Part shown: positions 444-8,991 of the stretch, in pieces
Layout: each line of letters begins with the position of its first letter
Numbering within the stretch: position 1 is the first letter of the stretch
Origin: Methanoplanus limicola DSM 2279
GTDB lineage: Archaea > Halobacteriota > Methanomicrobia > Methanomicrobiales > Methanomicrobiaceae
Direction: 5' to 3'
Length of the DNA: 64,000 bases
NCBI RefSeq assembly: GCF_000243255.1
Contig: NZ_CM001436.1
Span: 656,077-720,076, forward strand
Notes under the pieces: generated by a model
What the model saw: the letters and a program-made list of their open reading frames with translations, nothing else
Database searches by the model: none
Told to the model about the DNA's origin: nothing
Position numbers and translations under genes: made by a program

Positions 444-1205
444 ATGATGGATCTCCACCAGAAATTAGTAATCTTTTTTTTATTGACTGCTCTGCTCTGC
501 ATTTATCCCGGATGCTGTGAATACACAGTCACATTTGGTGAAAGTAACAGCCCGGATGCAGATATTTCAGGAGCAGATAAATCCACGACCTTCCGGGAAC
601 TGCCGCTCTGGATTAAAATATCATATGTCGCATCAATTATTGCCGGATTTTTTGCAATTGTCAAATTTTTGCCCCCAATAGTTGGGAGAATTCGTTATGT
701 TCTTGCCAATGAAAAAAGAAAGGAAATTATGGATTACATATCAGCAAATCCCGGAAAATCTGTCGGTCAGCTTGCTGAGGAACTTAATACCAAACGTGAG
801 ACTATCCGGTACCATCTTAATCGCCTCGAAAAAAATAACCATATAGTTTCTGAAAAAGACAGTAATTCCAAGAGAATTTTCATCAACCAGAACAGGTTTA
901 CAGGCCCGGAAAGAAGAATTATTGCCTTATGCCATAACCCTGTTAAGGCCAGAATTGTTGCAATTATCCTGAAATATCCGGGAATAAAAAATTCCGAGCT
1001 AAAAGAAGAACTTAACATTTCAAAAAGCGCTGTGACGTGGCACATCAAAAAGTTAGATGGTGCAGATCTGTTATCCACAAGGATCTCAGGAAAATTCAGG
1101 CATTATCATATCAGATCAGAGTTTGAAACTCTTTTCATCGAAAACCTGCCTGATGAGATAAAAGATGAATATAATCTGAAAGCTAATAATCAGGAAGATA
1201 AATAA
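444..1205 (+). CDS. membrane-anchored tandem winged-helix transcription regulator
   Basis: 253 aa. The N-terminus has a hydrophobic signal-like segment (residues ~8-26). A short ~30-residue extracytoplasmic stretch follows, then a transmembrane helix (~57-80, KISYVASIIAGFFAIVKF). The cytoplasmic part has two winged-helix domains. The first (~88-150) has a helix-turn-helix like GQLAEELNTKRETIRYHLNRL. The second (~165-235) contains LKEELNISKSAVTWHIKKL. Such ArsR/MarR-like tandem wHTH proteins with N-terminal membrane segments are frequent in Methanomicrobia; target genes are not known to me. It stands directly upstream of the repeated secreted-protein cassettes and may control them (inference). 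The ATGATG start has no clear Shine-Dalgarno sequence. Confidence 0.75.
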   Translation: MMDLHQKLVIFFLLTALLCIYPGCCEYTVTFGESNSPDADISGADKSTTFRELPLWIKISYVASIIAGFFAIVKFLPPIVGRIRYVLANEKRKEIMDYISANPGKSVGQLAEELNTKRETIRYHLNRLEKNNHIVSEKDSNSKRIFINQNRFTGPERRIIALCHNPVKARIVAIILKYPGIKNSELKEELNISKSAVTWHIKKLDGADLLSTRISGKFRHYHIRSEFETLFIENLPDEIKDEYNLKANNQEDK

Positions 1206-1511: not shown

Positions 1512-1545
1512 ACAGTTCAAGACTATAGTGAGAGAACATATAATC
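1512..1545 (+). promoter_or_regulatory. cassette promoter, copy 1
   Basis: Bases ACAGTTCAAGACTATAGTG followed by AGAG and a TATA-like ACATATAAT (about 1537-1544). The same block, with the same ~63-base distance to the conserved leader, occurs at 4168-4200 and 4711-4744. The shared TTCAAnGAnnTnGTGAGAG motif sits where a BRE or activator site would be. If transcription starts ~26 bases past the TATA centre, the 5' UTR is close to 218 nt. Confidence 0.6.
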
Positions 1546-1575
1546 ACTTACATTGAATAATTTATTTGAAGGGCA

Positions 1576-1870
1576 ATCAAAGGAGTGATCTTTTGATTTA
1601 ACCTTTCTTAAAACAATTTAGGTAGTAATTGACAGGAAAGAATAAGGGCCATTTTAGCCAATTCAGTTTCCTTATCCTGCCCTGTTGTCTGCCAGTTATA
1701 GTCAACCGGCATTTAACTGATATCACGTTAACTCTGATTAAGGTTTGCATGCCGGTTGCTCTTAGAAACTATGAGGTACAACTATGAGATTAAAGAAAGG
1801 CGTGCGGGCCTTGAGCCTGCTATTGGTAATGGCATTGCTGACGGCGATGTTTGTTCCGGCAGTTAGTGCA
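1576..1870 (+). repeat. leader + signal-peptide cassette, copy 1
   Basis: 295 bases starting ATCAAAGGAGTGATCTTTTG and ending after the signal-peptide codons (…VPAVSA). It is highly similar to 4231-4526 and 4773-5066. The untranslated part contains two inverted repeats. Arm GACAGG..AG.ATAAGG (1631-1647) faces CCTTAT.CT..CCTGT.GTC (1670-1689). A perfect 10-base pair CAACCGGCAT (1703-1712) / ATGCCGGTTG (1749-1758) lies just upstream of the ribosome site GAGGT (1773-1777). The three copies diverge abruptly after the signal peptide, so leader plus export signal behaves as one module. Confidence 0.85.
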
Positions 1871-3403
1871 ACGGAAACACAGAGTAGTTCTACGCAATCA
1901 TCAGTGGACATGGACAAAGATATAAATTCACATGAAAATTATATTACACCAGAATATTTCAAAGATTCAAAACCGGCAGAACCTTTGCATGAATCAGAAA
2001 TGATAAATTTAATTATACCTAAGAAAACTCTTGATTCTTTTAATCAAGAAGAAAATTTAGGAATAATAAGTATTCCAGTATTCTACTTAGATATAAAAAC
2101 ACATTTCGATAAATCAAAAGATTATCCAAACAGATATATTGCTAAAGACATTAATTCCAATGAGGCAGTTGTTCTGATGCGAATGCCTATGGACATGTTA
2201 GATCGTTTTCTTGCTACATCGAAAAATAATGTTGTAACCTGGATTCCCGGAGACACATAACTAGGGCAGGACAAATGCGGCCAAATTCATATTTAATCAG
2301 AATTTGGCCAACATATTGTAGCCATTTTAAAAATGCACGGCCCAGTTATGCTTTGTAATTACTACCTAACGAGCGAAACAACATCCATCAATAAAATACG
2401 CACTATTTCTAATTTAAAATGTGATACGGCCATTTTAAAAATGGCTCGTTAGGAATTTTCGGGAATCCAGGTTGTAACTCTTCCATTCGCGAATTTTTTT
2501 AGGAACTATAATAATATTATGGACCTTGATTCGCACGTAAAACTTGAAGGAGATTCTATAATAGTAAATCCTGGCGAAAATGATGTTACATTAATTAAAC
2601 AAATTTCATCTGCATCATCAGTAATTGAAACACCTGCTTTGGAAAGTAGTACAAGAACTGGGACAAAGTCAGTAAGGGTTACACCTCAAGGTGTTGATAC
2701 TTGGCATAATGAAAGAGTATTTTTTGAACGGGCCAGCAAAACAGTTAATTATAACTACATTATTGGTCAAATAACCCCTGATACTTGGTCATTTTCAGGA
2801 AACAATGATCAATATTATGTTCCACAGGAGAGGGAAACCTATCTAAATCCTAACAGACAGGATGCCATTGAGGTTGTCGTAAATTACGACCATTATTCAG
2901 ATTATCCTCTTGGTAAAGTATCATTATTTCCAGCCATCTATGACGATGGTTCAGATGTCATAGATTTAAGCAATTATGAGGATTCAGGGGCAGAGATTAT
3001 CGAACTAATTCCTAATTCATTCCCTCATTCATATGGATACCATATTGAGATTTATAATGGTAAATATTACATAAACTTTGAAGATATGAATACATTGCAG
3101 TGGTTTGATCAGTATGTATATAATGATCAGGACAATCCCAGTACAACTTTCACTGAAGTTTGCGGTTCGTCTGAATTTTTCCAGCATACCAGCCCAATAA
3201 CGGACTCTTTCTATGCATATACTGAACCGATTATCGATGAATGGGTCCGTGAAACCGGCGGCACATGGAGGGAACCAAGACAGGTTTGGACATTTGAAAA
3301 CCAAACAGAAAACGAGAATTTCGTCCACATTAACTGGTGCTGGGGTGGTTCAAACAACCAGGAACTTATCACAGAATCATATGCCTGGTCAGGTTGGGCT
3401 TGA
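1784..3403 (+). pseudogene. secreted-protein gene split by a MITE-like insertion
   Basis: Two open pieces, 1784-2260 (158 aa) and 2519-3403 (294 aa), belong to one former gene. Removing bases 2239-2478 (the element plus one copy of its 8 bp target duplication, 240 bases) rejoins them in one frame to give a 459-residue product. That product aligns along its length with the 410-aa protein at 4980-6212. Shared spots include a …NFFRNYNNIMDLD / …NFFGKYDNYEDM region, an ERE-containing stretch, PAIYDDG/AAIYDE, KYYINFEDMNTL/KYYIWFKDITTL and QYVYNDQDN/NYVYDDSND. The N-terminus is a signal peptide (MRLKKGVRA…VPAVSA) preceded by GAGGT. As it stands, translation ends inside the insertion after the residues IPGDT. 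The 294-codon half has an ATG but no ribosome site or export signal, so it is probably silent. The function of the family is unknown. Confidence 0.85.
2239..2470. mobile_element. 232 bp MITE-like non-autonomous insertion element
   Basis: Perfect 11-base terminal inverted repeats CTGGATTCCCG (2239-2249) and CGGGAATCCAG (2460-2470). The element is flanked by identical 8-base direct repeats GTTGTAAC (2231-2238 and 2471-2478), the signature of a target-site duplication. No transposase is encoded. The interior is full of hairpins: GGCCAAATTC/GAATTTGGCC, CCTAACGAGC/GCTCGTTAGG, and the palindrome GCCATTTTAAAAATGGC. The 8 bp duplication is compatible with several IS families; I cannot name the parent element from the ends alone. 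It must be mobilised by a transposase elsewhere in the genome. Confidence 0.88.
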
Positions 3404-3536
3404 CCTCCCAATTATTTTTATATTCGCCAAGGGATGATACATATTAATTATGAAATTCCTCAGGTTGTACCCAACCTGATTTTACCGGGTATAAAGATCA
3501 TCAAACAAAAATTACACTTTAACAGATGTGTTGTAA

Positions 3537-4067
3537 ATGAAATTATCAAATATTAAGAAAAACTATCCAATACTCCTTGTTAGCCTCATTATTGCCATAA
3601 TTATCATGATTTGTCTTATTTATTTTATGGTGATTCCATTCGAAAATCTTCATCCAAACCAATCAAATGAGATCCCACAAACCTCAGTTCCGTCGAATAC
3701 CACTTCTCAGACCAATGACTATTGTTACATTCAGGAGGTAGATCCTGATTATATAACAAATCGAGTTATTGTTCACCTGACTAAAGAGGATCTGATTTCA
3801 TTTCCACAAGTTGAAAACGGGATTCTGAACTATGCAAATAATGACAATAAATGGTATAATGGTCGTAAATTTGTTTATGACTTTAAAGGTTCGGTGAATC
3901 AAATTACAGAACTTCGAAATTTATCTTGTAAAAACAGCACCGATCCAAAATGCGATCCTTTAGAATCACCTGTATTGTATGAGTACGATGGACAATTTTT
4001 TGCGATAGGTTGCCTTCCAGAATTTGGGAAGTCCAGACCTACGGTGCCTTCGCCAACAGCCGGCTAA
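3537..4067 (+). CDS. small membrane-anchored hypothetical protein
   Basis: 176 aa. A single N-terminal signal-anchor helix (~residues 12-34, ILLVSLIIAIIIMICLIYFM) is followed by a Ser/Thr/Pro/Asn-rich linker (~38-60). An extracytoplasmic domain of about 110 residues follows, with cysteines at CYIQEVDPDY, LSCKNSTDPKCDP and IGCLPE that could form disulfides. I do not recognise the fold. It follows the interrupted secreted-protein gene by ~130 bases in the same direction. The intact paralogue at 4980-6212 is likewise followed by a small exported protein, so the two may be parts of paired sets (inference). Confidence 0.6.
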   Translation: MKLSNIKKNYPILLVSLIIAIIIMICLIYFMVIPFENLHPNQSNEIPQTSVPSNTTSQTNDYCYIQEVDPDYITNRVIVHLTKEDLISFPQVENGILNYANNDNKWYNGRKFVYDFKGSVNQITELRNLSCKNSTDPKCDPLESPVLYEYDGQFFAIGCLPEFGKSRPTVPSPTAG

Positions 4068-4167
4068 TATATTAAAAGGCTTTCTTTTTTTGTGAATATA
4101 TAACAGAGGGAAAACATGGTAAAAAATTATGACTCATCTCCAATTTTCTGAGATGAGTCAAGAATAA

Positions 4168-4200
4168 TAGTTCAATGATATAGTGAGAGTAAATTTATAA
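4168..4200 (+). promoter_or_regulatory. cassette promoter, copy 2
   Basis: AATAGTTCAATGATATAGTGAGAG followed by an ATTTATAAT TATA-like box. It has the same motif and spacing to the leader as copies 1 and 3. The inferred transcript would start near 4222, about 218 nt ahead of the ATG at 4440. Confidence 0.55.
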
Positions 4201-4230
4201 TTCAATAGACTATTTTTAAATGGAGATGAC

Positions 4231-4526
4231 ATCAAAGGAGTGATCTTTTGATTTAACCTTTCCTTAAAACAATTTAGGTGGTAACTGACAGGAGAGAATA
4301 AGGGCCGTTTTAACCAATCCAGTCTCCTTATCCTGCCCTGTTGTCTGCCAATTATAGTCAACCGGCATTTACCTGATTTCACATAAAATCTAATTAAGGT
4401 TTGCATGCCGGTTGCTCTTAGAAACTATGAGGTACAACTATGAGATTAAAGAAAGGCGTGCGGGCTTTTTGCCTGCTATTGATAATGGCATTGCTGACGA
4501 CGATGTTCGTTCCGGCGGTTAGTGCT
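4231..4526 (+). repeat. leader + signal-peptide cassette, copy 2
   Basis: 296 bases nearly identical to copy 1 through the signal peptide. The long inverted repeat (arms from 4287 and up to 4345) and the CAACCGGCAT/ATGCCGGTTG stem are preserved. One internal pair differs from the other copies in a compensating way: GGAAA…TTTCC in copies 1 and 3 is GGAGA…TCTCC here (4291-4295 and 4323-4327). The ribosome site GAGGT precedes ATG 4440. Confidence 0.85.
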
Positions 4527-4580
4527 GTCGATACGGATTTTATTTCCCCCAACTATGCAGGAAAAATTATTCCGTTTTGA
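4440..4580 (+). pseudogene. orphan signal peptide stub (46 codons)
   Basis: Begins with the same signal peptide as the neighbouring secreted proteins (MRLKKGVRAFCLLL, VPAVSA). It carries on for only 17 residues (VDTDFISPNYAGKIIPF) before TGA at 4578-4580. Leader, promoter and ribosome site look intact, so it may still be transcribed. Nothing resembling the mature secreted domain follows before the third cassette begins ~130 bases later. Either the body of a third family member was deleted or the cassette was copied here without cargo. A short secreted peptide as a real product is possible but unsupported. Confidence 0.7.
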
Positions 4581-4710
4581 GATAGGCGCAGTGATATTTT
4601 AGAGAGGAAAATCCAATATTTATTAAAAATAAGCCATCAGCGATGATTTTACAAAAACATTGTCACCCAAAATCTCCAAATCCCGGATATTGCTGTCAAT
4701 ATTACAATAA

Positions 4711-4744
4711 CAGTTCAATGATGTGGTGAGAGGTCTATATATAG
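4711..4744 (+). promoter_or_regulatory. cassette promoter, copy 3
   Basis: CAGTTCAATGATGTGGTGAGAG followed by a clear TATA element (CTATATATAG, 4735-4744). It has the same order and spacing as copies 1 and 2. Predicted start near 4765, leaving a ~215 nt leader before ATG 4980. Confidence 0.65.
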
Positions 4745-4772
4745 TCCTACTTTCTACTTTTAACTGAGGGGT

Positions 4773-5066
4773 AACAAAGGAGTGATCTTTTGATTTAACC
4801 TTTCCTTAAAACAATTTAGGTGGTAATTGACAGGAAAGAATAAGGGCCATTTTAACCAATTCAGTTTCCTTATCCTCCCCTGTTGTCTGCCAATTATAAT
4901 CAACCGGCATTTACCTGATTTCACATAAACTCAGATTAAGGTTTGTATGCCGGTTTTAAGAACAAAATGAGGAAAAGTTATGAAAATTAAAAAAGGCGTG
5001 CGGGCTTTTTGCCTGCTATTGGTAATGACACTACTGACAGCGATGTTCATTCCAGCGGTTAGTGCA
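4773..5066 (+). repeat. leader + signal-peptide cassette, copy 3
   Basis: 294 bases matching copies 1 and 2. The last ~40 bases before the ATG differ more (TTTTAAGAACAAAATGAGGAAAAGTT in place of the GCTCTTAGAAACTATGAGGT type), but the stem pair CAACCGGCAT/ATGCCGGTT and the ribosome site (GAGGA) are kept. It drives the only intact member of the secreted family. Confidence 0.85.
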
Positions 5067-6212
5067 ATAAGTTATAACGAAATGGAACAAGGATCTTCTG
5101 AATCAATAGCAATATTAACACCAGACTATAGTAAAACTGAACAGTATCTCAAAGATCCACTCTCGGAATCTGAAATTTCATATTATGTTTTTCCTGCTAA
5201 ATGGATTATTGAAAATAATTTGAATGAAGATTTGGAAATCGTGAATTTAAATCTTGAAACTTCTGAATTGAATAAAGAATATGATGAAAAATTGGAACAT
5301 CTGGTATATACACCAGTTCAGATAGATTCTGATGAAGTAATATATTTACTGAGATTACCTACTCAAATGATTAAAAATCAAAATGGAGATGATGAAAAAC
5401 TGGATTTGAATTATCCAATAAACTTCTTTGGAAAATATGATAATTACGAAGATATGCAAAATGACATTCTGGAAAAAAGAAAATTAAGCAAATTAAATCT
5501 TGAATCCTCGAAAGATCCAAATAATTCGGAAAAATTTTCCTCTGTTGCCATATCAAAAGATACTAGATCCATAAATTATATGGAAAGTATTCAATATGAT
5601 TCAGCATCAGGTTATTCTGATATAGATTATGTAACTGGTAAAATACAGCCATATTCATTTACTTCCGGACAATCTTGTGTAATATATCAGGAAAGAGAAA
5701 TCCACTTTGATCGTGCTGGTGATCTTGTTGAGTTAATTCTCTGGTATCAACCTGATGGTGATATTTATCTCTCTGCAGCAATTTATGATGAGACAGTTCT
5801 TTGCTGGCCAAATAACGAGTGGATTGATGCATCTTCTATGCATCAGTATGAATATTATGTTCAGGTAAATTCTGATAAGTATTATATTTGGTTTAAAGAC
5901 ATAACAACCTTAGACTGGGATAATTATGTTTATGATGATTCTAATGATGGAGCAGAATATGTTACACATTTAATAGGAACATCAGAACTGGATTTGGTTG
6001 GAACACCTCAAACAGATTTTGAAGCTATTACTAATACAATGCAGGATGAGTGGTCACAAGACAGTGATAATAACTGGATCCGTCCGGGAATTTCATTTAG
6101 CTATAATTCCCATACTTATCCATATGGCTCTGGAAATTATGTCTACATGAATGATTGGGTTTCATCCAATATCATTTACACATATCATAAAGCAGGAAGG
6201 TATCAAACATGA
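4980..6212 (+). CDS. secreted protein of unknown function, cassette-driven
   Basis: 410 aa with a Sec-type signal peptide: basic MKIKKGVRA, a hydrophobic core, and cleavage probably after VPAVSA-like IPAVSA (~29). The mature part is acidic and rich in Tyr, Asn and Asp. An N-terminal third (~30-150) is followed by a probable linker (~155-190) and a beta-rich C-terminal domain (~200-400) with repeated aromatic pairs (IYQEREIHF, YYVQVNSDKYYIWF, DNYVYDDSND). It has no C-terminal sorting motif or transmembrane helix, so it should be released or loosely bound. It is a paralogue of the product interrupted at 1784-3403. I recognise no catalytic motif; a surface or extracellular binding role is only a guess. 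GAGGA precedes the start. Confidence 0.75.
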   Translation: MKIKKGVRAFCLLLVMTLLTAMFIPAVSAISYNEMEQGSSESIAILTPDYSKTEQYLKDPLSESEISYYVFPAKWIIENNLNEDLEIVNLNLETSELNKEYDEKLEHLVYTPVQIDSDEVIYLLRLPTQMIKNQNGDDEKLDLNYPINFFGKYDNYEDMQNDILEKRKLSKLNLESSKDPNNSEKFSSVAISKDTRSINYMESIQYDSASGYSDIDYVTGKIQPYSFTSGQSCVIYQEREIHFDRAGDLVELILWYQPDGDIYLSAAIYDETVLCWPNNEWIDASSMHQYEYYVQVNSDKYYIWFKDITTLDWDNYVYDDSNDGAEYVTHLIGTSELDLVGTPQTDFEAITNTMQDEWSQDSDNNWIRPGISFSYNSHTYPYGSGNYVYMNDWVSSNIIYTYHKAGRYQT

Positions 6213-6287: not shown

Positions 6288-6920
6288 ATGAGTTTAATAA
6301 AAATTAAAGTTATTCTCACTATTTTCTTTTTTGTTTTTTGTAATTTAACTGCGGGATGCGTTGGAACAATTAATGAAAATACGGATAGCAGCGACATTAT
6401 AGAGAATTCTCACGATGGAGATAATATATCAACTGTACAACAGGATATAATCTGGCAGGTATTGCCAAAGCAAACCTCTGTTGAAGAGACTTATCCTCCA
6501 AATATGATTGCTCCGACAGCAGCAGGGAATGAAGTTGCCGACCTGACAGTGTATGCAGAAAATTCGGAGAATTCAGTGAAATCAGGTGAACCTGTATCTA
6601 TTGATGTCATATTTGAATCAATAGATGATTCTCCGGGTATTATCAACAACTTTCCTCCAAAAATGTTCGTTGCTTATGCAGACCTATTGGAAACCGAACG
6701 CTATCAGGTTGTTGAATATATTGATGAGAGAAAAGGAGATGTAACAATTAATCCCGGTGAAAAAATCACTCAAAATATAGTCTGGACTCCAAACAAAACA
6801 GGAGAATTTTGTCTTGCAGTAATGGACGTAAATATCTTTGATGGTGAAGGATGGTATGGATATTATTCCCATGTTGATCATGACAGAGGAGTTCCTGTTG
6901 CAAACATTACGGTGAAATGA
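6288..6920 (+). CDS. putative lipoprotein
   Basis: 210 aa from the ATG at 6288, chosen over the ATG at 6273 because GGAG (6275-6278) lies at proper distance only for the later one. Signal peptide with lipobox-like LTAGC (residues ~21-25), then a Ser/Asp/Glu-rich linker. The C-terminal ~100-residue beta-sandwich-like domain (DLTVYAENSENSVKSGEPVSI … NPGEKITQNIVW … ANITVK) resembles immunoglobulin/intracellular-proteinase-inhibitor folds in style; this is not a firm assignment. It lies 75 bases after the secreted protein gene in the same direction and may act with it at the cell surface. Confidence 0.65.
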   Translation: MSLIKIKVILTIFFFVFCNLTAGCVGTINENTDSSDIIENSHDGDNISTVQQDIIWQVLPKQTSVEETYPPNMIAPTAAGNEVADLTVYAENSENSVKSGEPVSIDVIFESIDDSPGIINNFPPKMFVAYADLLETERYQVVEYIDERKGDVTINPGEKITQNIVWTPNKTGEFCLAVMDVNIFDGEGWYGYYSHVDHDRGVPVANITVK

Positions 6921-6975: not shown

Positions 6976-8118
6976 ATTATAGATCTTTTAGTCGGCGACA
7001 AGACCGGCCCGGTCGGCATGGCTTTTGCAAACGCAATGTCACAGCTCTCACCCGGACACACACCACTTCTGGCAGTAATAAGGCCTAATCTCTTAACAAA
7101 GCCTGCAACACTCATCATACCTAAAGTGACTCTTAAGACCGGAGAACAGGTAAATGCAATGTTTGGCGCAGTCCAGGCGGCAGTTGCAAAGGCTGTTGCA
7201 GACTCAGTTGAAGAGGGCGCATTCGGTGACAATAATATAGAAGACCTTGTACTCCTGGTAAGTGCATTCCTTCACCCGGATGCAAAGGACTACAACAGGA
7301 TTTACCGCTACAACTACGGTTCAACAAAGCTTGCAATCACCCGTGCACTCGCAGGATTCCCGGACAAAGAAACAGTTCTCAAAGAGAAAGACCGTGCAGG
7401 ACACGCTGTTATGGGATTCAAAGTACACAGGCTCTGGGACCCGCCGTACCTTCAGGTGGCCATGGACCTTGTTGACATGAAGTCTGTAGAGAGAGTCTTA
7501 ACATCAGTGCCCAAGAACGACCATGTATTAATTGAGGCAGGAACACCTCTGATTAAGCAGTTCGGGCTTTCAGTAATAAGCGAGATCAGAAAGATAAGGC
7601 CTGATGCATTCATCATCGCTGACTTAAAGACCCTTGATACCGGAAACCTTGAGGCAAGGATGGCAGCAAACGCATCCGCAGACGCTGTTGTTGTATCAGG
7701 GCTTGCACCTGTGCCGACAATTGTCAAATTCATCCAGGAAGCAAAGAAGACCGGCATCTACTCAGTCATAGATATGCTCAATGTTGATAAACCGGCAGAG
7801 CTTATAGAAAAGCTTGCAAAAGAAGGCGCAGTTCCAAGCATTGTTGAGATGCACCGTGCCATTGACGCTGAGGGCGATGACTACAACTGGGGCGACATTC
7901 CGGCAATCAAAGAAGCAGCCGGCGGAAAACTCCTTGTCGCAACCGCAGGCGGTGTCAGGCAGCATGTTGTAAAGGACGCACTCAAGTCAGGCGCTGACAT
8001 CCTCGTTGTCGGAAGGGCAATCACTGCATCCAGGAACATCCAGAACTCGGCAGAGCAGTTCCTTGAAGAGATGAACAAGGAAGAGATTGACCAGTTCAGG
8101 ATCATGACTGATTTCTGA
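6976..8118 (+). pseudogene. 5'-truncated formaldehyde-activating enzyme / hexulose-6-phosphate synthase (Fae-Hps)
   Basis: The open frame from ATG 7018 (366 aa) is an Fae domain (~1-145) joined to an Hps domain (~150-366, an orotidine-decarboxylase-like barrel with DLKTLDTG and a C-terminal VVGRAIT). Intact archaeal Fae-Hps links C1 transfer on tetrahydromethanopterin with ribulose-5-phosphate formation. Homology runs back in frame to codon ~6979 (IDLLVGDKTGPVG) but stops there. The usual ~17 first residues, including the conserved His of the …VAHID motif, are replaced by unrelated sequence (CQI before ID) with TGA at 6955. There is no ATG/GTG/TTG between and no ribosome site at 7018. Only the Hps half could still be functional. 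The break coincides with the right end of the accessory block. Confidence 0.75.
7929..8118 (+). repeat. hps 3'-end direct repeat, copy 1
   Basis: The last ~63 codons of the Fae-Hps frame. They are repeated in the same orientation at 8802-8991 with roughly 88% identity by eye. Most differences are synonymous third-base changes. The two copies bracket the hicBA remnant. Confidence 0.85.
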
Positions 8119-8252
8119 TCTGGAAAGACAATATTTTTTCAGAACTTCTTTTTTTAGCTCCATTTACCGCTAATTTCGCCATAAATGGCATTATACTCTG
8201 TTTAGCAGAATGTATGAGAATTAATATAACGGAAAAACAAATACTCATAATT

Positions 8253-8468
8253 ATGCGGAACTTAAAAATTATCGTTGAAAAACATGAAGATGGTTATATT
8301 GCATACCCCATTGGCCTGAAAGGGGTAGTAATTGGTGAAGGCGACACATATGAAGAAGCACTTTCAGATGTTAAATCTGCAATTGTGTTTCACATAGAAT
8401 CGTTTGGAAGTGATGTATTTGAAAATGAGGAGATACTGGAAACCTTTGTGGCAGAGGTTGCAGTCTGA
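8253..8468 (+). CDS. hicB: HicB-like antitoxin
   Basis: 71 aa from ATG 8253 (an in-frame ATG at 8214 is less likely). It is a HicB_like fold with the family pattern KIIVEKHEDGYIAYPIGL … GEGDTYEEALSDVKSAI …. Typical members neutralise HicA mRNA interferase and often repress their own operon. A TATA-like AATTAATATAAC ~28 bases before 8253 fits a leaderless transcript starting at this ATG. The stop overlaps the next ATG (ATGA at 8466-8470), the usual HicB-HicA coupling. The PIGLKG variant replaces the commoner PSLPGC loop. Confidence 0.7.
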   Translation: MRNLKIIVEKHEDGYIAYPIGLKGVVIGEGDTYEEALSDVKSAIVFHIESFGSDVFENEEILETFVAEVAV

Positions 8469-8702
8469 TGAAGTTTCCACAGGATGTACCAATTGCAAAA
8501 GTTCTAAAAACATTTGAATTACCCGGGTTTGTAACAGTCAGGGCAGAAAATCACATCTCAATGCAACGGAGTAATCCTGACGGTACAAAAACTCCGCTCA
8601 CACTCCCTAAGTCTTAGTAAAATTAAAGTCTCAACATTAAGGGTGATATGTAATCAGGCCGGCATATCAAGAGAAGAATTCCTGAAATATTATAATCAAT
8701 GA
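8468..8702 (+). pseudogene. HicA-like mRNA interferase toxin, frameshifted
   Basis: The first 49 codons show the HicA fold: PQDVPIAKVLKTFELPGF, the catalytic-histidine segment AENHISMQR, and NPDGTKTPLTLP. The frame then ends at TAG 8615-8617. Shifting by one base at ~8609 resumes the family C-terminus, SLSKIKVSTLRVICNQAG and REEFLKYYNQ, ending at TGA 8700-8702. Total length would be ~80 residues, normal for HicA. The toxin is thus probably dead by a one-base indel; no slippery heptamer that would suggest programmed shifting is obvious. Overlaps hicB by ATGA. Confidence 0.75.
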
Positions 8703-8801
8703 CATCGCCGGGATGGGAAAATACTACATTCCCTCATCCTCTACACCTTAAATGGCAGTTTACAAAAGCAACAGGTCAACTGCCTTACCGCTAATATCAA
8801 A

Positions 8802-8991
8802 TCTTCCTGTCGCAACCGCAGGCGGTGTCAGGCAGCACGTTGTTAAGGACGCACTTAAGGCAGGCGCTGATATTTTAGTTGTCGGAAGAGCAATAACAGC
8901 ATCTAAAAACATCCGGAACCCGGCAGAGCAGTTCCTTGAAGAGATGAACAAGGAAGAGATCGACCAGTTCAGGATCATGACTGATTTCTAA
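8802..8991 (+). repeat. hps 3'-end direct repeat, copy 2 (gene fragment)
   Basis: Encodes PVATAGGVRQHVVKDALKAG … EEIDQFRIMTDF and a stop, the C-terminal ~62 residues of the Hps barrel, with nothing of the rest of the gene ahead of it. Similarity to copy 1 continues past the stop into the ACAATATTTTT… tail. It is a fragment, not a gene. The synonymous nature of the differences shows that this copy was once part of a functional, diverged hps. Confidence 0.85.

Follow-up and report, generated by a model that had tools for sequence, protein, structure and literature searches.

Within a 64,000-nucleotide stretch of Methanoplanus limicola DSM 2279 DNA (the window, by which we mean the whole of this stretch) a promoter motif, a leader and a signal peptide occur together three times in front of different sequence, raising the question of what kind of system joins one constant export segment to a changing series of proteins. 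The initial annotation proposed a modular secretion cassette that receives or exchanges cargo, as in surface-antigen variation. Our analysis supports a modular expression and secretion unit that exchanges cargo at the border of the signal peptide, and we favor, with somewhat better than even confidence, a polymorphic secreted effector-immunity system that is driven by this cassette and probably controlled by a membrane-anchored regulator.

Copies of the cassette in the window and beyond

The three copies, all on the forward strand, were located where they had been described, with promoter-proximal motifs starting at 1514, 4169 and 4712. In the first, the operator motif (1514 to 1534) lies directly upstream of a TATA box at about 1539 to 1545 and is followed by a type I leader (5' untranslated region, 1582 to 1783) and the shared 29-codon signal peptide (1784 to 1870); the corresponding coordinates are 4169 to 4189, 4237 to 4439 and 4440 to 4526 in the second copy, and 4712 to 4732, 4779 to 4979 and 4980 to 5066 in the third. 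The leader core GGAGTGATC is found at 1582, 4237 and 4779, and the motif-to-leader spacing is 68, 68 and 67 bases when measured from the motif start to GGAGTGATC, or 63, 63 and 62 with the anchors of the initial annotation. The three signal peptides differ by a few residues only. The description of the leader as structured fares less well: it has no match in Rfam, and the conservation of a 7-bp hairpin in its 3' part, close to the start codon, is mainly at the sequence level, with weak covariation (one compensatory pair in 14).

The first signal peptide leads into a broken cargo gene of a glutamic-peptidase-like family, the first part of which (1871 to 2238, forward strand) is separated from the remainder (2479 to 3403, forward strand) by a MITE-like 232-bp insert at 2239 to 2470; this accounts for the split already noted, and the insert has 11-bp inverted ends (CTGGATTCCCG) and is flanked by an 8-bp target duplication (GTTGTAAC, 2231 to 2238 and 2471 to 2478). 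The second lies within a 46-codon short open reading frame and is followed on the same strand by a 17-codon tail (VDTDFISPNYAGKIIPF), a stop codon and a spacer (4527 to 4711), and both this tail and the 410-residue cargo are as originally described.

A search of the 3.2 Mb M. limicola genome and of related Methanomicrobiales takes the cassette far beyond three copies. The genome has 25 DNA matches to the cassette and 22 signal-peptide matches; the signal peptide is present approximately 23 times, mostly in two clusters, and 17 cargo genes carry it. Of 199 genomes from the order Methanomicrobiales, 45 encode the signal-peptide family at E≤0.01, representing 14 genera; a stricter threshold of E≤0.001 applied to 232 genomes of the class gave 29, from 11 genera, all of them within Methanomicrobiales. 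Across the order, approximately 20 mutually unrelated cargo families stand behind one signal peptide and leader; 66 distinct cargos form 21 BLAST clusters, and after removal of the signal peptide profile comparison relates only two of these to each other.

The border at the signal-peptide cleavage site

Similarity between unlinked copies stops within approximately one base of codon 29, where cleavage is predicted, in agreement with the sharp drop reported for the window copies. Two units at genome positions 645279 to 647502 and 652380 to 654597 are 98.3% identical over 2,232 bp, up to the cleavage site, and then enter unrelated cargos. The histories of cassette and cargo are decoupled: the cargo at 2855251 is 96–100% identical over its first ~750 bp to a cargo in a genome of another genus (G025), while the signal peptides are 82% identical and the upstream sequences match at background level, and the G025 cassette shares 97.5% identity across 396 bp with a neighbouring cassette whose cargo is unrelated. 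Cargo and partner genes are homologous across genera while residing on different cassettes, and the presence of cargos is patchy among genomes.

These disagreeing histories, and the position of the border, support the proposed exchange of cargo and bear directly on simple tandem duplication followed by cargo divergence and decay. Cluster A does hold duplicated units, including copies of Fae-HPS and of the regulator described below, and some copies are broken. However, simple duplication is refuted, and we give it virtually no credence, because the cargos are non-homologous by profile comparison and their histories conflict with those of the cassettes; the narrower case raised at the outset, of just three tandem paralogues with co-linear histories, likewise fails because the cassette is present in at least 11 genera and the two histories disagree.

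We suggest that homologous recombination swaps pairs of cargo and partner genes, with the cassette copies acting as the left-hand homology; because the cassettes would supply that homology, the join would fall at the signal-peptidase site. Later gene conversion would keep the cassettes of one locus alike regardless of their cargo. A search for a vehicle, using one cargo against viral contigs and plasmids, found none.

The tail-spacer module (VDTDFISPNYAGKIIPF plus spacer) is present in six copies in the genome that are 92–100% identical, occur behind two different leader types, and in every case are placed exactly after a signal peptide and before the full cassette, promoter included, that follows it. 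This arrangement would also be produced if the cassette itself, comprising tail, spacer, promoter, leader and signal peptide between two successive cleavage sites, were a mobile promoter element inserting behind signal peptides. We consider this unlikely: neither a recombinase nor a target duplication or free copy came to light, the same product arises from unequal crossing-over between signal-peptide repeats, and the exchange of cargos is left unexplained. We also considered and rejected the 17-residue tail as a secreted signalling peptide; the six copies are near-identical in DNA, non-coding spacer included, and recent spread is enough to account for their conservation without a peptide function.

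Cargo proteins and their membrane partners

Peptidase activity is predicted for 15 of the 17 cargos in M. limicola, and the predictions fall into four kinds: metzincin, C39-like, caspase/CHAT-like and glutamic. The metzincin (M12-like) cargos match Reprolysin_5 above the cut-off (E 3e-8 to 2e-7), and 12 of 15 members contain the zinc motif HExxHxx(G/D/N)xxH (here HExGHxFxAxH), the remaining three being short fragments. The C39-like cargos have the C39 signature with its Cys and His, and the DUF6345/CHAT cargos an SGH..C signature. The third cargo in the window (5067 to 6212, forward strand) comprises a pro-domain and a beta-sandwich, and is a predicted glutamic peptidase of the eqolisin (G1)/neprosin type. 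Glu 238, 240 and 336 (E238, E240, E336) are invariant in its family alignment and are putatively catalytic, and its model, of moderate confidence (pLDDT 59.8), has its best Foldseek matches to 1s2b, 2ifr, 2ifw and neprosins (E 9e-7 to 6e-5). The likeness lies in the fold and not in a sequence match: comparison of this cargo and its family profile with the sequences of solved structures gave nothing useful, and fold comparison alone was informative. Family searches leave approximately half of the cargo families without an assigned function, and NCBIfam and Pfam gave no assignment for most of the otherwise unplaced cargos.

Behind most cargo genes, at a distance of no more than ~25 bp, lies a gene for a cargo-specific membrane protein. 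A membrane protein is encoded on the same strand no more than 100 bp downstream of 39 of 48 cargo genes, compared with 50 of 194 controls (p = 2e-12), and cargo families and partner families match in 31 pairs, against a permutation maximum of 12 in 2000. The coupling is not rigid, with partner families recurring with different cargos in 10 pairs, and related cargos having partners that are not recognisably related in 56 pairs; some partners are polytopic. In the window, all on the forward strand, the probable partner of the first cargo, by position and topology, is a membrane protein at 3537 to 4067 with an N-terminal hydrophobic segment and an extracellular domain ending in LYEYDGQFFAI; no family could be assigned to it, its LptF_LptG match (7e-4) being below the cut-off. 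The partner of the third cargo is a lipoprotein (6288 to 6920; lipobox LTAGC) with cognate homologues. It is the only partner modelled, as a low-confidence beta-sandwich (pLDDT 50.6), and fold comparison gave no useful match. Positions 2 to 169 encode the 3' end of a 333-residue membrane partner of an upstream DUF6345 cargo (genome stretch 655244 to 656245), which has homologues; the start of this gene lies before the window.

Partner genes also occur without cargo. One operon (L146) contains eight membrane genes, at least five of which are related to partners, and there are further cargo-free arrays. The partners have no match among known immunity families, and one partner has weak PepSY/YcdB-like matches; PepSY/YcdB-like domains are known from protease propeptides.

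The suggestion of surface-antigen variation, in which one expressed surface protein is altered by recombination with donor copies, is consistent with the sharp-bordered homology cassettes and with homogenisation resembling gene conversion. It is nonetheless very improbable, as the cargos are mostly predicted peptidases rather than surface antigens, and cargo-specific cognate partner genes travel with them. There is also no sign of a single expression site with silent surface-antigen donors, because many copies have their own promoter: the type I copies each have the promoter motif, and full copies in general have promoters of their own.

A second alternative is a regulon of secreted digestive proteases, in which the common promoter, leader and signal peptide would co-express scavenging enzymes that release amino acids from surrounding protein, and the membrane partners would anchor or mature these enzymes at the cell surface. 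The predominance of peptidase-like cargos in M. limicola, the coordinately placed promoter common to the copies, and the PepSY/YcdB-like matches are all compatible with this, and we regard it as possible though doubtful. It would not lead us to expect cargo-specific partners, polytopic ones included, cargo-free partner arrays under the same operator, or the patchy presence and replacement of cargos, and many cargo families are without peptidase signatures.

A previously undescribed effector-immunity system of the Methanomicrobiales, polymorphic in its cargo, has in our judgment slightly more than an even chance of being correct. Its constant part would be the operator, leader and signal peptide, with whole peptidases of several catalytic classes and membrane-anchored immunity proteins exchanged at the cleavage site. 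The constant 5' cassette (operator, TATA box, leader and 29-residue signal peptide) would drive export of an exchangeable cargo, mostly peptidases of the four kinds; we infer that the cargo kills and that the membrane-anchored partner encoded downstream of each cargo protects the producer as an inhibitor or immunity protein. Partner genes that lost their effector would give rise to the orphan arrays under the same operator, which resemble toxin-free immunity arrays.

A conserved 5' region and signal peptide also precede strongly diversified mature proteins in Hessian fly salivary effectors and in the conotoxin and frog peptide families, but these are eukaryotic and their mature parts have usually diverged from a common ancestor, in contrast to the unrelated families here. 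The literature searched agrees with the earlier statement that no archaeal system of the same kind has been described. Among the closest parallels are bacterial polymorphic toxins (CDI, Rhs, MafB and others; PMC3482391), which likewise have a constant 5' part with variable 3' cargo, a cognate gene just downstream (here the cargo-specific membrane partner, with its presumed immunity role), joint replacement of cargo and partner by recombination, and toxin-free partner arrays (polyimmunity loci) comparable to the cargo-free arrays; peptidases, the only signatures of this sort carried by the cargos here, are among their known toxin types. They differ in that their constant part is a large trafficking protein, whereas here it is far smaller, just a promoter, leader and 29-residue removable signal peptide; the cargo here is itself a complete secreted protein, the partners are membrane-anchored, and the exchanged homology includes the operator and leader. 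In the Vibrio cholerae type VI system effector-immunity pairs are similarly replaced through homologous recombination and old immunity genes kept in arrays, but delivery is by an injection machine rather than, as far as is visible here, by general signal-peptide export (PMC5361080). The VARTIG modules of Thermococcales are archaeal, hypervariable and recombining, with secreted proteins in a polymorphic-toxin-like layout, but are centred on a large protein with Ig domains and a variable C-terminal domain and have neither a shared promoter-signal-peptide cassette nor a series of peptidase cargos; the study describing them detected no equivalent elsewhere among archaea (PMC8416519).

If the effector-immunity reading is correct, environmentally important methanogens deploy exchangeable extracellular proteases with matching protection, and a removable signal peptide and promoter can be a recombination platform, a role played by larger trafficking domains in bacteria. 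To our knowledge, little has been learned about antagonism by archaea, and almost no secreted weapons of methanogens have been described. At a minimum, these loci represent a conserved archaeal regulon comprising secreted peptidases and membrane partners, and the operator-leader-signal-peptide cassette may serve for protein secretion in methanogens.

The shared operator and a candidate regulator

The operator motif, GTTCAR-N5-TRGTGARAG, is present at three sites in the window, compared with 0.06 expected from shuffles, and at 16 sites in the 3.2 Mb genome, compared with none for a reversed control pattern. This 20-bp operator stands before the cassettes, individually in the case of each type I copy, and also before a regulator operon and the cargo-free membrane-gene arrays. 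Under the effector-immunity reading one recognisable operator would control the arsenal, and the whole of it could thus be listed from genome sequence and the proposal directly tested.

The predicted regulator (444 to 1205, forward strand) has an N-terminal signal or anchor and a transmembrane segment, behind which lie two winged-helix DNA-binding domains; two stretches give a Pfam HTH_24 match (9e-18) and MarR/ArsR-type matches. Members of its family adjoin most cassette loci, five in M. limicola as well as loci of other genera, and regulator and cassette copy numbers are correlated across 28 family genomes (rho 0.94, ignoring kinship). Acting through contact with the shared motif, this membrane-anchored double-winged-helix protein and its small secreted companion probably control both the cassettes and the regulator's own operon. 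In another genome of the same genus as M. limicola (G001), an operator site precedes partner homologues in the absence of cassettes and of any detectable regulator homologue, and another factor may therefore read the motif.

The small secreted protein is normally encoded just 5' of the regulator, and received no assignment from NCBIfam and Pfam. Comparison with intact copies identifies a C-terminal remnant of it (..GTWRYEVYGYDVSGTEDYTI) at 260 to 428 on the forward strand, the start being approximate; its 5' part is missing from the unit in the window, where it lies beside the incoming cargo-partner pair.

Cassette copies in the genome and among relatives

The three cassettes that the initial annotation placed in the window are present, with signal peptides at 1784-1870, 4440-4526 and 4980-5066 that are members of one tight family. 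Each has an operator-like motif, GTTCAR-N5-TRGTGARAG, a few bases 5' of the TATA box, and the three sites observed in the window compare with 0.06 expected. Restriction to three copies, the situation in which simple duplication had been offered as the explanation, does not hold: a cassette search of the M. limicola genome (3,200,946 bp) gave 25 DNA matches, mostly in cluster A (646-661 kb, which takes in the window) and cluster B (2850-2869 kb). Other signal-peptide genes lie at 1138, 1141, 1143, 1171 and 1442 kb, and by our count the genome contains 17 cargo genes and six short ORFs.

Of 199 genomes from the order, 45 (14 genera) matched a signal-peptide profile at E≤0.01; at E≤0.001, 29 of 232 genomes from the class did so, representing 11 genera, all within the same order. 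Several Methanomicrobiaceae genomes, G037 among them, contain 8 to 15 copies each. DNA differences per site in the signal peptide are 0.23, 0.13 and 0.39 at codon positions 1, 2 and 3, and the excess at third positions indicates that selection acts on its amino acid sequence.

The cleavage-site border and the histories of cassette and cargo

DNA homology between unlinked copies ends within about a base of codon 29, the predicted signal-peptidase site, with unrelated sequence beyond. Cluster A units 645279-647502 and 652380-654597, for example, share 98.3% identity along 2,232 bp ending at codon 29, after which the first continues into a C39-like cargo and the second into a DUF6345 cargo. The left part is also modular, as cluster B has one 3' leader and signal peptide behind two different upstream leaders, and leaders of still other kinds occur at loci beyond it. 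A leader stretch 5' of the start codon, GATTAAGGTTTGCATGCCGGTT (e.g. window 1737-1760), hardly varies among several genera or between two leader types; its conservation is more of sequence than of structure, and it is possibly a protein- or recombination-related site.

Cassette and cargo also differ in ancestry. The metzincin cargo at 2855251 and a cargo in G025, a genome of another genus, share 96-100% DNA identity for ~750 bp past the cleavage site, whereas their signal peptides are 82% identical and sequences further upstream are at background. The G025 cassette preceding this cargo instead matches that of another gene at the same locus (97.5% identity over 396 bp), the likeness stopping at the cleavage site and the two cargos being unrelated. 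Within a genome, mean signal-peptide DNA identity is 79% with unrelated cargo versus 82% with related cargo; between genomes, with related cargo, it is 76%. Cargo exchange together with local cassette homogenisation would leave such conflicting patterns. Duplication followed by decay was rejected as the origin of the cassette series, as it cannot yield these separate histories. The border and the discordant histories together demonstrate, at the level of sequence comparison, a modular cassette with exchanged cargo, bearing out the cargo exchange at the cassette border suggested in the initial annotation.

Cargos, partner genes and orphan arrays

With signal peptides removed, 66 cargos form 21 BLAST clusters, only two of which are united by profile comparison, and many cargo families from other genomes are without a family match. 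Fifteen of the 17 M. limicola cargos are predicted peptidases, counted here by family membership, with some members broken. Six are metzincin-like (Reprolysin_5 above cut-off, motif HE[ILF]GHxFxAxH), and four are C39-like with conserved Cys and His. Two DUF6345- or CHAT-like cargos have the pattern SGH...C; from this motif and a weak CHAT match we read them as putatively caspase-like. The remaining three, including both window cargos, are glutamic-peptidase-like, with Glu 238, 240 and 336 invariant in the family alignment; a predicted model (pLDDT 59.8) has eqolisins and neprosins among its top solved structures, matching 1s2b with E 9.4e-7 and TM 0.55 on target.

In 43 of 46 cases the gene downstream of the cargo shares its strand and is no more than 100 bp away (median 24 bp), and 42 of the 46 downstream neighbours have a predicted membrane segment. 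Membrane-protein neighbours placed in this way follow 39 of 48 cargo genes versus 50 of 194 same-locus control genes (p 2e-12), and cargo family predicts partner family, with 31 concordant pairs against a maximum of 12 in 2000 permutations. Partner homologues are found also where cargo is lacking: the G025 operon L146 (1952987 to 1946361), preceded by an operator site, comprises eight membrane genes, at least five of them related to partners, and has no signal-peptide cargo. Comparable cases are at 1091 kb and 573 kb in M. limicola, and others are in the cassette-free congener G001. Such orphan arrays would be hard to explain if partners merely anchored or matured the cargo, and they are reminiscent of polyimmunity loci in polymorphic toxin systems (PMC3482391) and of the V. 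cholerae arrays of orphan immunity genes (PMC5361080).

The cassette-cargo-partner series is best interpreted as a polymorphic secreted effector-immunity system, with presumptive toxicity and immunity; the main rival is a regulon of scavenging proteases. In keeping with the novelty inferred initially, a literature search of open-licence full texts found no described archaeal counterpart. The VARTIG authors sought analogous modules outside Thermococcales and reported none like VARTIG (PMC8416519).

Two loci, L144 (genome 573216-578203) and L145 (2535046-2541963), contain an array of lipoproteins and tandem secreted paralogues of ~325 amino acids (including TKVFFEKNGEPYNGTVSFTVTCYGY) with operator sites in front, and the array is kept in a congener without any cassette. 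At genome 1091974-1093543 (minus strand), a partner homologue (1091974-1092843; 30% identity to the partner of a DUF6345-like cargo) comes after a 228-aa protein with an N-terminal hydrophobic segment of a different kind; the two may form a cargo-partner pair that is not part of the cassette.

Operator, short modules and neighbouring elements

Operator sites number 16 in M. limicola (none in the reversed control), five in G007 and seven in G037, two further genomes compared, and are positioned before cassettes, the regulator operon (644993; G007 1385128) and orphan arrays. In the predicted regulator (window 444-1205), an N-terminal signal or anchor and a transmembrane segment are followed by two winged-helix domains, and a small secreted protein gene usually directly precedes the regulator gene. 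Within the family, the number of regulators per genome correlates with the number of cassettes (Spearman 0.94 over 28 genomes, uncorrected for kinship). We infer that this regulator binds the operator motif, with caution because G001 has a motif site and no detectable regulator.

Six near-identical short modules, each consisting of a 17-codon tail, spacer, promoter, leader and signal peptide, are bordered exactly by a signal peptide on the upstream side and a full cargo on the downstream side. Such an arrangement would result from unequal crossing-over between signal-peptide repeats, or from integration between them, and a functional 17-residue peptide need not be assumed.

A 232-bp MITE-like insert with an 8-bp target duplication occupies window 2239-2470; its end sequence CGGGAATCCAG is also found at genome 2857266, adjoining sequence common to a transposase-like region at 650.2 kb. 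The cluster A units are flanked by copies, variously full-length, truncated or fragmentary, of a gene that fuses formaldehyde-activating enzyme with hexulose-phosphate synthase (Fae-HPS; window 7018-8118 and 8752-8991; genome 643449-644639 and 650824-651531; 92-96% DNA identity). In G007, a cassette locus with other cargos adjoins that genome's own Fae-HPS gene, and the upstream neighbours are the same. A small gene pair following a Fae-HPS copy (window 8214-8617), a candidate HicB/HicA-like toxin-antitoxin pair, is duplicated together with Fae-HPS at genome 651627-652114 and from 664290.
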